From the NCBI RefSeq assembly GCF_016899935.1, contig NZ_JACJJK010000001.1:186001-250000 (forward strand): a stretch of 64,000 nt of DNA, read 5' to 3'. Made by a program: the position numbers and the translations under genes. The notes beneath the pieces are model-generated. The model was not told the DNA's origin. It saw only the letters and a list, made by a program, of their open reading frames with translations, and ran no database searches. Within the stretch, counting starts at the first letter, position 1; each line of letters starts with the position of its first letter. Below are positions 25,762 through 63,749 of the stretch, piece after piece. The stretch comes from Olsenella uli. Its GTDB lineage: Bacteria; Actinomycetota; Coriobacteriia; Coriobacteriales; Atopobiaceae.

Positions 25762-25846
25762 GCCCGAGTGGCGGAATTGGCAGACGCGACGGTCTCAAAA
25801 ACCGTTGGGGAAACTCGTGCGGGTTCGAGCCCCGCCTCGGGCACCA
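25762..25846 (+). tRNA. tRNA-Leu (anticodon CAA)
   Basis: An 85-nt class II tRNA with encoded CCA. The acceptor GCCCGAG pairs with CTCGGGC. The anticodon stem ACGGT/ACCGT encloses CTCAAAA, giving anticodon CAA (codon TTG). A long variable arm TTGGGGAAACTCG and T arm GCGGG-TTCGAGC-CCCGC follow. Confidence 0.96.
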
Positions 25847-25896: not shown

Positions 25897-26063
25897 TTGT
25901 CTGGGCAAACAGTTCAAACCAACTCGCCCCGTCCTCCCTATCTGGGTCGCCCTGAGCTGGGAAAACGCTCCCGAGAGGCGTTATCTGGGTCGCCCTGAGC
26001 TGGGAAAACGCTCCCGAGAGGCGTTATCTGGGTCGATATGGTTGAGAATCTTTGCCCAGACAA
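25897..26063. repeat. 43-bp tandem repeat inside 13-bp inverted repeats
   Basis: TTGTCTGGGCAAA (25897-25909) and TTTGCCCAGACAA (26051-26063) are perfect inverted ends. Inside, a 43-bp unit beginning TATCTGGGTCGCCC occurs at 25939-25981 and again, identical, at 25982-26024, with a third partial start at 26025. The unit contains AACGC/GCGTT inverted arms. The remaining gap to the next gene has four GGCGAGAAG-like runs (26083-26137) and no gene. Confidence 0.9.
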
Positions 26064-26143
26064 ACCCGGATCAGGTGAGGAGCGGGCGAGAAGAACCGGC
26101 GAGAAGGACCGACGGGCCAAGAAGGGGCCGGCGAGAAGGACGG

Positions 26144-38997: not shown

Positions 38998-39746
38998 CGT
39001 CCGGCCCCCGAGACGTCCGTCGCAAAGTCGGCGAGGATCGCCGCCGCCGAGCGCGTCATCTCGCGCGAGAAGCCCGAGTTCCACTTGCGCTCGCAGAACG
39101 CGCGCGCCCAGTCGGCGAGCTCGCGGCTCGCGGGGGCCTTGGGACGCAGGTCCTCGAGCAGGCGCGCGCCGTCGCGCTCCTCGTAGCGGTTCTCGAAGAC
39201 GACGTCTTCCAGCGGCAGCCGCGCCGGCTTCGTGCGGCGGCGCTGCCCCTCGGTGGGATGCCCGATCACGAGCATCACGGCCGGCACCACGTGGCGCGGG
39301 CACCCCAGGATGCGCGCCTGGTCCTCGCGCCGCTCCAGGATGTCGCCGATGTAGCACGAGCCCAGGCCCAGGCTCTCGGCGGCGACCACGGCGTTCTGCG
39401 CGGCGATCGCCGTGTCCTCGAGCGCGAGCAGGAAGTCCCCCACGCCCGGCTCGCGCGCCTCCGCGCCAGCGGCGAGAAACGCCTCGTGCCAGCGGAGCAC
39501 GTCCGCGCAGAACACGAGCACGAGCGGCGCGGCGGCAATGAAGGGCTGGTTGTCGCAGGTGACGGCGAGCTCGTCCTTCTCGGCCTGGTCGCGCACCACG
39601 ATGATGGAGTAGAGCTGCTGGTTGCCCGCCGTGGGCGCCTGGCACGCGGCCTCCAGGATGGCCCGCTCGTCGTCGGCGCTCACGGGCTCGTCGGTGTAGG
39701 CGCGCACGGAGCGGCGGGCGTGCAGCTGGGCGATGGTCTCGTTCAT
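38994..39746 (-). CDS. Nitroreductase family FMN protein
   Basis: A 250-residue flavoprotein. It starts with HARRSVRAYTDEPVS, the FMN phosphate-binding motif of the nitroreductase family. QAPTAGNQQ, TAIAAQNAVVAAESLGLGSCYIGDI and IGHPTEG follow. The C-terminal extension (about 195-250) contains W and C residues but no ferredoxin motif. It uses NAD(P)H to reduce nitro, quinone or related compounds; the physiological substrate is unknown. The start overlaps the upstream DUF3267-like gene (ATGA) and its stop overlaps queH. Confidence 0.9.
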   Translation of the reverse strand: MNETIAQLHARRSVRAYTDEPVSADDERAILEAACQAPTAGNQQLYSIIVVRDQAEKDELAVTCDNQPFIAAAPLVLVFCADVLRWHEAFLAAGAEAREPGVGDFLLALEDTAIAAQNAVVAAESLGLGSCYIGDILERREDQARILGCPRHVVPAVMLVIGHPTEGQRRRTKPARLPLEDVVFENRYEERDGARLLEDLRPKAPASRELADWARAFCERKWNSGFSREMTRSAAAILADFATDVSGAGR

Positions 39747-40285
39747 GCGACCTCCTCGCGGTCGGAGAGCAGGGTGATGCCGGTATTTGTGTCGCGAACG
39801 TGGGAGCAGGCGCGTTCGCGGAGGGCGGTCGCGGCCATGAGCAGGTCGCCGGCGCATCCCGAGAGGTGGATGCCGGCGAGCAGGACCGCGAGCACCGGGC
39901 GGGCGGCGGCAAGCGCGCCGACGAGCAGCGCGCCGCTCACCAGCACCGCCGGCGCCAGCAGTACGGCGACCATGCGAGCGCGCGCCAGCACGGCGCCGTC
40001 CGTCCTGGTGTAGAGAAAGGCGTCCTGGAAGCCAAAGCTCACCCGGCAGCCGGGACAGAGCAGCTTGAAGCCCGCCGCGTGCACGAGCTCGTGAACGGGC
40101 AGCGCGACGAGCGAGCCCGCCGCCAGCGCAAGCCACCACCAGACGTCGATCCTCTCGCCTCCCAGCGCGAGGCCGAGCAGGACGGCGAGCAGGACCGTCG
40201 CGCCGAGCAGCGCAAACGACAGCCGCGCCACGCACCGCTGCAGCGCGGCGGCCCCCAGGATGTCTATGTCCTCGATCACGTGCAT
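39743..40285 (-). CDS. DUF3267-like membrane protein with HExxH motif
   Basis: A 180-residue membrane protein with about four hydrophobic segments (about 23-43, 49-65, 102-122, 125-145). HELVHAAGFK (about 65-74) contains the zinc HExxH motif at the end of a membrane helix. This arrangement matches DUF3267 proteins, putative zincin peptidases of unknown substrate. It is the first gene of a three-gene coupled unit with the nitroreductase and queH. The start is at ATG 40285; an array of 31-bp repeats begins 38 nt upstream. Confidence 0.8.
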   Translation of the reverse strand: MHVIEDIDILGAAALQRCVARLSFALLGATVLLAVLLGLALGGERIDVWWWLALAAGSLVALPVHELVHAAGFKLLCPGCRVSFGFQDAFLYTRTDGAVLARARMVAVLLAPAVLVSGALLVGALAAARPVLAVLLAGIHLSGCAGDLLMAATALRERACSHVRDTNTGITLLSDREEVA

Positions 40286-40322: not shown

Positions 40323-40625
40323 GTCCGGAAATCGGCGGGGCTGTCACGCAGGGTTCTAGGAAGGGCCGACCTTGTTCCGGGGGCTTCCGGGAATCGGCGG
40401 GGTTGTTCCGCAGGGTTCTAGGAAGGGCCGACCTTGTTCCGGGGGCTTCCGGGAATCGGCGGGGTTGTTCCGAGGGTCTCCGAGAATCGCCAGGCTTGTA
40501 CCGGATGTGTCCGCAAATCCGCGTTCTTGTCGCGCGTAACCGCGTCTTTTGAGCCCACCGGGTGTGCACGGTCCCCGTTTCTTAGAAGCCGCCGGGACAA
40601 GGTCGGCCTTTTCCGGAAACGCGCA
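40323..40625. repeat. 31-bp repeat array 1
   Basis: Seven forward units of exactly 31 bp run from 40323 to 40539 (starts at 40323, 40354, 40385, 40416, 40447, 40478, 40509). A 24-nt centre follows, then two reverse units (40564-40594, 40595-40625). Units two and four are identical, and units 2-3 and 4-5 are a near-identical 62-bp duplication. Conserved cores are GGAA near base 6, CGGCG or GCCG near 12 and TTGT near 19. Some half-joins read TTCCGGAA. This fills the 408-bp gap between the DUF3267-like gene and metG; no gene is present. Confidence 0.92.
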
Positions 40626-58712: not shown

Positions 58713-59094
58713 TTCCGGGAATCGCCGCCCTTGTCGCGCGCGGTTCTAGGAACTTCCGCCTTTGTCCTTCTCGCTTCTAGAAATGCTAGCCCTTGTCCCG
58801 GCGCGTCCAAGAATCCCGGCCTGTGCGCACGTACGATCCGGAAATCGGCGCCCGTGCGCACCTGAAGGCGCCTCCGTGCGCGCACGGGCGGCGATTCCTA
58901 GACGCACGCGCGACAAGGGCGCCAATTTCAAGACGCGGACGCGCACGGGCGCCAATTCTTAGACGCGCGTGCGACAAGGGCTCCGATTCCTGGACGCGCG
59001 TGCGACAAGGGCGGCGATTCCCGAACAAACCCGGCGACGGGCGCACGTTCTTCTCGCCTGACCTGCGCACGGTCGGCCTTTCCTGGAACGGCTC
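58713..59094. repeat. 31-bp repeat array 2
   Basis: Forward units start at 58713, 58744, 58775, 58806 and 58837 (31-bp steps). Reverse units start at 58880, 58911, 58942 (a 30-bp unit), 58972 and 59003, with two more divergent ones to 59094. The two halves meet at a hairpin GCCCGTGCGC (58850-58859) and GCGCACGGGC (58880-58889). The central units carry CCGTGCGC where outer units carry CTTGTCGCG. Together with the A-rich tract and the MarR promoter this fills the 622-bp gap; no gene is seen. Confidence 0.92.
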
Positions 59095-59128
59095 GCGCCA
59101 AGAAACGGAAATCCTGGAGCGAGTTCGC

Positions 59129-63457: not shown

Positions 63458-63749
63458 TTCCGGGAATTACCGCAGTTGGCGCGGGATGCTCCGGGAATTG
63501 GCGCGGTTGGTGCGGGGCGTTCCGTAAATCACCGCCCTTGTCGCAGCGTGCTCTAGAAAGTCGCGCCCGTGACGCACTCTCGTCCGAAAATCTCCGCCCG
63601 TGCGCAGTCTGGACACGCTCCAGCTGCGCACGGGCGGACTTTCTTAGAACGCCACGGGACAAGGCCGGCAATTCTGAGAGTGGATCGGGACAAGTGCCGC
63701 ATTTCTCGGAACGCGCTGGGACTAGGCCGGCAATTCCCGGACGCCAGCC
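63458..63749. repeat. 31-bp repeat array 3
   Basis: Five forward units (starts 63458, 63489, 63520, 63551, 63582) and four reverse units (63626, 63657, 63688, 63719), each exactly 31 bp. The centre is a perfect 15-bp stem, TCCGCCCGTGCGCAG (63593-63607) with CTGCGCACGGGCGGA (63624-63638), and its loop holds a further CTGGA/TCCAG stem. The layout is the same as array 2. Confidence 0.92.

Follow-up and report, generated by a model that had tools for sequence, protein, structure and literature searches.

Helically phased, inverted rows of intergenic repeats and a candidate nuclease-like partner gene in Olsenella uli and related Coriobacteriia

The repeat arrays described here, and the protein encoded between two of them (below, the partner protein), find their closest described counterparts in the Foldback and Galileo elements of Drosophila, the REP/BIME repeats with their RAYT proteins, the EDxHD homing endonucleases, and the AbiEi-type antitoxins (type IV TA). 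The Foldback (FB) element has a 31-bp subrepeat, and we know of no helical step law for Foldback or Galileo elements. Like the arrays, these elements have long inverted arms built from tandem sub-repeats, and Galileo sub-repeats are reported as transposase-binding; unlike the arrays, they are eukaryotic and transposase-based. REP/BIME repeats (PMC2817692) resemble the arrays in being dispersed between genes, in flanking a cognate gene, in forming families that differ from paralog to paralog, and in co-varying with the protein. The RAYT protein is of the Y1 type, however, whereas the arrays accompany an unrelated EDxHD/AbiEi-like protein, and REP/BIME repeats are short palindromes in alternating orientation, whereas the arrays consist of asymmetric units of about 24 bp, set in same-strand rows at a helical step, with arms that meet at a centre. 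In its logic, REP/RAYT comes closest of all to the arrays and their gene; in its protein it does not match.

The partner protein is like the EDxHD homing endonuclease I-Bth0305I in its predicted catalytic fold and its E-D-x-H-D residues, and like AbiEi-type antitoxins in the predicted fold of its front half. I-Bth0305I is reported to dimerize on a target of nearly 60 bp (PMC3943268). The inverted repeats to which AbiEi and Rv2827c are reported to bind measure 23 bp, and the gap within a pair is 3 or 13 bp (PMC7319586), a 10-bp difference of the kind also seen in the linkers of the arrays. The two precedents fit rows of approximately 24-bp sites with 10-bp linker changes. Unlike genes of EDxHD homing endonucleases, the partner gene is free-standing between arrays, its product has an AbiEi-like front half, and the putative recognition words lie in multi-copy arrays. 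Unlike AbiE systems, it has a nuclease-like domain fused to the AbiEi-like part, a scan of its neighbours in the O. uli genome found no adjacent DUF1814 toxin gene, and sites lie far from the gene.

The window, that is, the whole stretch of 64,000 nucleotides of the O. uli genome (G000) that was analysed, has three arrays (Table 1). All of them lie in the gaps where a sequence-only reading had reported 31-bp units in forward and then reverse orientation, and the signal is stronger than that reading had noted. Array 1 is situated between the start of a minus-strand gene (39743–40285) and a MetRS-like gene (40694, plus strand), and its centre is irregular, with a step of 48 bp (37 + 11). In Array 2, two inner units of the forward arm carry GTGCGC, and the reverse arm includes a 62-bp step (58996–59058) with space for one weak unit.

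Table 1. Arrays of the window and the candidate cognate gene beside it. Positions are those of the window unless a contig or locus is named.
Feature	Position	Strand	Description
Array 1	40323..40618	.	7 forward units, 31-bp step (40323-40539); 2 reverse units (40557-40618)
Array 2, forward arm	58713..58866	+	5 units of the 31-bp word, CTTGTC end facing the centre
Array 2, centre	58867..58872	.	6 bp between the two innermost units, start-to-start 37
Array 2, reverse arm	58873..59119	-	7 scored units
Array 3, forward arm	63458..63612	+	5 units, step exactly 31 bp
Array 3, centre	63613..63618	.	6 bp
Array 3, reverse arm	63619..63742	-	4 units; the complete array flanks the candidate cognate gene on its 5' side
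Candidate cognate gene	G000:C49:250020-251111 (locus L308:1501-2592)		20 bp past the last base of the window; 364 aa

A profile refined on 18 loci and the window gives a unit consensus of TTCCAGGAATCGCCGCCCTTGTCCCG plus 5 nearly free bases (positions 27–31), with fixed contacts at TC (positions 2–3), AA (8–9), G15, and CTTG (18–21). A profile scan had been proposed as a check by the sequence-only reading. At a score of 12 it gave 1389 matches in 741 kb (an array-enriched and partly redundant set with overlapping loci), far above the 8 matches in the same sequence read backwards; the 31-bp step and the layout were kept, and neither chance-level matching nor a 31-bp periodicity no higher than that of shuffled sequence was found. 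The suspicion that the three gaps belong to a family was borne out as well: the genome has at least 44 such places, hand-merged from the rows listed among 173 centre-model matches, and these are elements of set design dispersed between genes. A strict one-unit pattern matches G000 118 times and, read backwards, 0 times.

Spacing was analysed in 97 array entries from five species (29 from G000; 65 from G062, G072, and G083; 2 from G066; and 1 from a metagenome-assembled genome [MAG] labelled Collinsella). Duplicates had been removed, although at least two entries still repeat part of another, and a pair of G087 arrays that step at 41 bp was left out of this count. The same-strand step is 31 bp in 597 of 631 cases, and the centre step is 37 bp in 79 of 100 centres and 37 bp plus one or two whole units in 9 more. 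Most arrays (89 of 97) have a plain forward-then-reverse layout, with four compound (+-+-) arrays and four partial or odd ones, and the inverted arms made of tandem sub-repeats are a Foldback-type feature of this set. Fourteen steps deviate by more than 2 bp, 12 of them by 9–11 bp (binomial P = 1e-6 when set against a uniform range of 3–15 bp, a yardstick of our own choice). Because these larger deviations amount to about one helical turn, and because sister species have 41-bp steps, the arrays are phased double-stranded DNA. As part of the joint explanation developed below, and with the same reserve, we favour a unit made of a roughly 24-bp asymmetric site and a linker, in which a 7-bp linker would give the 31-bp step (three helical turns) and a 17-bp linker the 41-bp step (four turns). 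It had also been suggested that position within an array is coded. This holds in part. In this genome [TG]TGC stands in place of TTGT in 22 of 38 innermost units, 4 of 36 second units, and 2 of 29 third units; in the other species it does so in only 14 of 84 innermost units.

The candidate cognate gene has a further 5 + 12 array on its 3′ flank, at C49:251128, and it lies between two arrays in all four species with the 31-bp word; the adjacent genes in G000 encode an ABC exporter and a DUF308 protein. Because the gene starts beyond the window, it was out of view for the sequence-only reading. Relatives of the partner protein are found in all 31 genomes of the genus (5–14 in each) and, outside it, in 50 of 57 genomes of the same order, with or without arrays, and in 1 of 12 others. 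When the best homolog was taken from each of 30 genomes, out of 31 in the genus (L308–L337), 19 had periodic arrays on both flanks, 5 on one flank, and 6 on neither. In an enlarged set of 70 homolog entries (69 genes), periodic arrays are present on both sides in 35 and on at least one side in 51, leaving 19 without detectable arrays, compared with 0 (both sides) and 82 (one side) of 626 control genes (Fisher test, P = 9e-40 for both sides and 1e-25 for at least one). This test used only the intergenic sequence beside each gene, and the controls came from the window and from samples of G064, G067, and G003. The 70 comprise the best homologs of the 30 genomes, picked by score, and 40 further regions, of which 20 were taken from the match list with their flanks unseen (6 with arrays on both sides, 2 on one). 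The last 20 (10 both, 9 one) lean toward the array-bearing side, because they were chosen in the knowledge that distant paralogs lack arrays. An earlier version of the test with another period filter found arrays on both flanks of 17 of 50 and 3 of 19 homologs versus 1 of 637 controls. For 30 homologs from outside the genus, examined over a wider period range and with no control run, both flanks are periodic in 7 and one flank in 9.

On a quick tree of the 70 homologs, 61 fall on one side of a branch with SH-aLRT support of 99, and 50 of these have arrays, versus one (on one side only) of the other nine. The class of step also follows the tree. Among 47 homologs with a clear step (three-turn, 29–32 bp; four-turn, 40–43 bp), the class changes 3 times, compared to an average of 14.5 in shuffles, none of which was as low (0 of 300, never below 10). 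The partner family is associated with flanking arrays, and their step co-varies with the protein tree. In ten flank pairs that were inspected, the array words differ between paralog lineages; the same word occurs on both sides of the gene in seven pairs, on the upstream side only in two, and on neither in one (a damaged gene). In G087 the ortholog is matched up to residue 339, after which it passes into a longer frame; no arrays accompany it.

No match was found for the G000 protein in Pfam or NCBIfam, in the PDB by sequence, or with Foldseek at an E-value of 0.001; BFVD likewise gave none at E ≤ 0.001, its weak rows including Vsr, DUF559, and TnsA types. Over 29 family members, all Pfam matches are weak (MTES_1575 REase in nine, with a best E-value of 0.019; DUF2726 in four; DUF5315 in one), and defence annotation with PADLOC gave no more than two JAB matches, both weak and each confined to one member. 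The AlphaFold model of the partner protein has a mean pLDDT of 89.7. When the model was compared with known structures using VIA-align, residues 178–299 were placed on the EDxHD catalytic domain of I-Bth0305I (3r3p; Z 9.4, r.m.s.d. 2.7 Å, 95 residues), and a Neisseria endonuclease-like protein (3hrl) was matched at Z 8.3. Residues 1–173 were placed on an AbiEi antitoxin (6y8q; 3.3 Å, 118 residues) at Z 7.9, and a Z below 8 can reflect a common arrangement. These fold matches have Z-values of 8–9, and mitoribosomal chains scored 8.6 and 7.9 in the same region; TnsA reached Z 5.9. As modelled, the front half of the protein thus resembles AbiEi, and its back half resembles an EDxHD/Vsr-type nuclease. 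In the 29 aligned homologs, with damaged L313 left out, four residues of the back half are conserved and may be read as the E-D-x-H-D motif: E181 (29 of 29), D225 (29 of 29), H249 (28 of 29), and D258 (27 of 29).

Other species of the genus have arrays with words and steps of their own, which we call dialects. Units similar to GTCCCGGAATCGCCG recur at 41 bp in G036, G074, and G087, as do GCCGAGAAAACCGCGGGGCTGTACC units in G067 and CTTAAGAATCCGGGGTTGTGGC units in G003, and further species without the 31-bp word have their own dialects, as read by eye. In a blind periodicity scan of non-coding sequence, 14 of the 32 periodic gaps of G067 peak at 41 bp. In G003 the peak is at 61 bp (14 of 24) and belongs to a different, palindromic repeat, with 3 further gaps at 41 bp; periods are mixed in G064 (16 gaps) and in G030, which is of another genus (6 gaps). 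At a few orthologous positions, dialect and step vary with the species. The gap at 58713 of the window corresponds, through one homologous flank, to a 41-bp array of G087, and L025 versus L177 and L059 versus L173 differ in dialect between two homologous flanks. Upstream of an mraZ-like gene (named by eye), there are 31-bp arrays in G072 and G083, 41-bp arrays in G036 and G074, a decayed remnant in G062, and no array in G087 and G000. Downstream of a PTS-IIA-like gene (also named by eye), G087 has a single inverted pair of the word ACGCAGAATCCGGGTTTCTCGT (L227) where G072, G062, and G083 have full arrays; this pair is perhaps a minimal or founding form. In G036 (L170–L177), at least seven arrays belong to the GTCCCGG dialect; the gene of this dialect was seen in G074 (L312), and no near ortholog of that gene was found in G036.

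Wide dispersal was documented for the 31-bp dialect only. Among the 31 genus genomes, the strict unit pattern has 43, 52, and 49 matches in three other species, two matches in a fifth, a single match in each of two further genomes, and 0 in the remaining 24; read backwards, it matches once across all 31. Besides G000, 31-bp arrays are plentiful in the three genomes whose orthologs of the partner protein are the closest (76–77 per cent). Loci chosen by the 31-bp word number 21 in G072, 13 in G062, and 15 in G083, and the dialect is absent from the samples of G064, G067, G003, and G030. A looser pair pattern, sought in 296 genomes of the class, has 17, 17, 7, 6, and 4 matches in five members of the genus, and another five members have one or two each. 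In other genera it matched once or twice in 18 genomes, mostly with odd spacing, compared with 4 genomes for the pattern read backwards. When five other gene-linked dialects were sought in samples of their own genomes, three (G067) were not found, one from G003 (L330) was at 2 sampled loci, and one from G072 (L345) was at 2 examined loci, one of them the gene's own. There are strong hints of a second widely dispersed dialect in G067, whose gene was not among the flanks examined.

A phage origin of the arrays was rejected, as there are 0 two-unit matches in viral_contigs. A Kiritimatiellia MAG (L054) has one two-unit match, and no array was called in it. The only array on a contig labelled Collinsella (CASEEY010000155.1, L069) has flank genes 97–100 per cent identical to those of UBA1382 (L073), from which a binning error seems likely. 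In T. provencensis, two 31-bp arrays lie about 7 kb apart (L137, G066:C3:328001–348000), and each has one flank gene about 90–98 per cent identical to that of a G072 array. Because of this identity the segment was probably transferred, and the idea that a partner gene lies between these two arrays was rejected.

Orthologous arrays occupy the same places and change in number by gain or loss of whole 31-bp units. Across nine pairs of close orthologous arrays (53 units), 22 of 530 comparisons show a difference at contact positions, against 70 of 371 in linkers (Fisher P = 1e-12) and 122 of 689 at the remaining unit positions; three of these pairs share three arrays, and the units were called in one member with at least 22 of 31 bases shared, which may bias the counts somewhat. 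Comparison of these sequences indicates that the contact positions are under purifying selection and that the arrays are maintained. When 37 pairs are compared under looser criteria, the flanks nearly always agree better than the arrays do. Homologous genes are found on both sides in 45 array pairs, three of which represent one place twice and one of which represents two arrays in one gap. One tabulated array overlaps a predicted gene by more than 60 bp. Arrays lie near gene 3′ ends (median 24.5 bp, n = 128, versus 118 bp to 5′ ends, n = 90), and gaps between convergent genes make up 33 of 104 array gaps, with a few places counted twice, compared with 9 among 153 background gaps that measure 80 bp or more. 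Neither a clean empty site nor a target duplication was found at one locus read by eye in 28 of the 31 genomes or at another read in 17.

We think it probable, though well short of certain, that an AbiEi/EDxHD-type protein, whose gene lies between two of the arrays, uses them as binding sites set in phased rows. We infer that the partner protein binds the arrays, and we hypothesize that they are also cut and copied. With linkers of the lengths given above, bound monomers would line up on a single face of the helix, and the row would reach a symmetric centre where its arms meet; the protein would load cooperatively on both arms and would nick or cut at or near the centre. Repair from another array would then copy, lengthen, and homogenize arrays, and through this homogenization one species would share one main dialect and step, with sister species differing. 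We advance more tentatively, as a possibility to which we give rather less than even weight, that this is a new class of genome-rewriting element in Coriobacteriia, in which the nuclease cuts the arrays and repair keeps the chromosome in one dialect and one helical step. On this reading, a change of the protein, for example, from four to three turns, would spread to dozens of loci, and every paralog would run a dialect of its own, usually one that has not yet left a small number of loci. Full-text literature searches, in which few subscription journals and preprints were covered, retrieved no description of such arrays or of such a pairing, and the combination of arrays and nuclease-like protein appears to be a type of genetic element that has not been described before. 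It connects a class of long, otherwise unexplained intergenic repeats of strict spacing with one particular protein family that has no Pfam name, and it offers a natural test of joint change in a DNA-binding protein and dozens of genomic sites, including a jump of one helical turn. Beside REP/RAYT, it would also be another and unrelated way of pairing repeats with an enzyme of their own.

Other readings of the arrays account for part of these observations. They could be phased docking sites with a role in host chromatin or regulation (nucleoid organization, insulation, or autoregulation), used by the partner or by some other protein, with the nuclease activity incidental or lost. Such a role would suit the purifying selection on contact positions, the preference for convergent gaps, and the nearness to gene 3′ ends, and AbiEi proteins autoregulate from inverted repeats (PMC7319586). 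However, the nuclease residues are conserved, the strict 31-bp unit is absent from 24 of the 31 genus genomes, and dialects differ between sister species, and we regard a host function as unlikely, albeit with a chance that deserves to be taken seriously. Remnants of Foldback-type transposons, moved by another transposase and with the nuclease gene as a passenger, are improbable: dialect and step follow the nuclease phylogeny and contact positions stay conserved after divergence, even though the inverted arms of tandem sub-repeats are as in Galileo and Foldback elements and the presence of an array differs between species at the mraZ-like locus. The systematic transposase search covered PF01797 only.

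That search bears most directly on the possibility that the arrays are REP/BIME elements moved by a RAYT (Y1) transposase. The REP/BIME-like character proposed by the sequence-only reading stands as far as intergenic dispersal is concerned, and the arrays are inverted and PF01797 matches occur in 28 of the 31 genus genomes. Nevertheless, the RAYT search that the same reading had proposed came out negative: the array-rich G072 has 0 such matches, which contradicts a RAYT origin there unless its assembly (98 per cent complete) lacks the gene. What the arrays flank is an unrelated nuclease-like gene without any Pfam match, and 89 of the 97 arrays lack an alternating layout. A RAYT origin is the least probable of the readings considered. 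Hardly more credible is a structured RNA or DNA cruciform in which the arms pair into one long rod. The inverted consensus words of the arms would permit pairing, and innermost facing pairs are 59.2 per cent alike, compared to 56.7 per cent for innermost units of different arrays. Yet facing pairs at ranks 1–4 are 58–62 per cent alike (67.5 per cent at rank 5, n = 13) versus 60 per cent for non-facing units of the same array, and linkers are 28–42 per cent alike in facing pairs versus 34 per cent. Facing units of equal rank thus show no excess likeness, and we see no sign of selection for pairing between the arms. In addition, step classes differ by 10 bp, and besides two tRNAs, Rfam has no match in the window at the curated threshold. 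The rod, cruciform, or non-coding RNA that had been envisaged from the sequence consequently finds no support in complementarity, and spacing is quantized at about 10 bp, near the pitch of DNA. We read the arrays as DNA, without an RNA rod, because facing units are not unusually alike and steps differ by one turn.

Several other repeats were observed in the same genomes. Just downstream of a tRNA (25762–25843), the window has a perfect 43-bp tandem repeat in 2.3 copies (25939–26035). Palindromic units of alternating orientation and 61–63-bp period, similar to BIMEs, occur in G003 (L289–L296), G067 (L281:13086), and G030 (L297, L299, and L303); the G003 repeat, of which CCGTCCGCAACCTGCACG is an example, is abundant despite the lack of a PF01797 match in that genome. 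The motif CGTYCTTCTCGCC / GGCGAGAAGRACG lies mostly 10–40 bp outside arrays and points inwards; of 187 arm flanks, 30 have it within 200 bp. It is also found alone or in tandem in other gaps, and in the window it was noticed at 26085–26140 and 46113. In G036, the letters of this motif fill the long linker of some 41-bp units.
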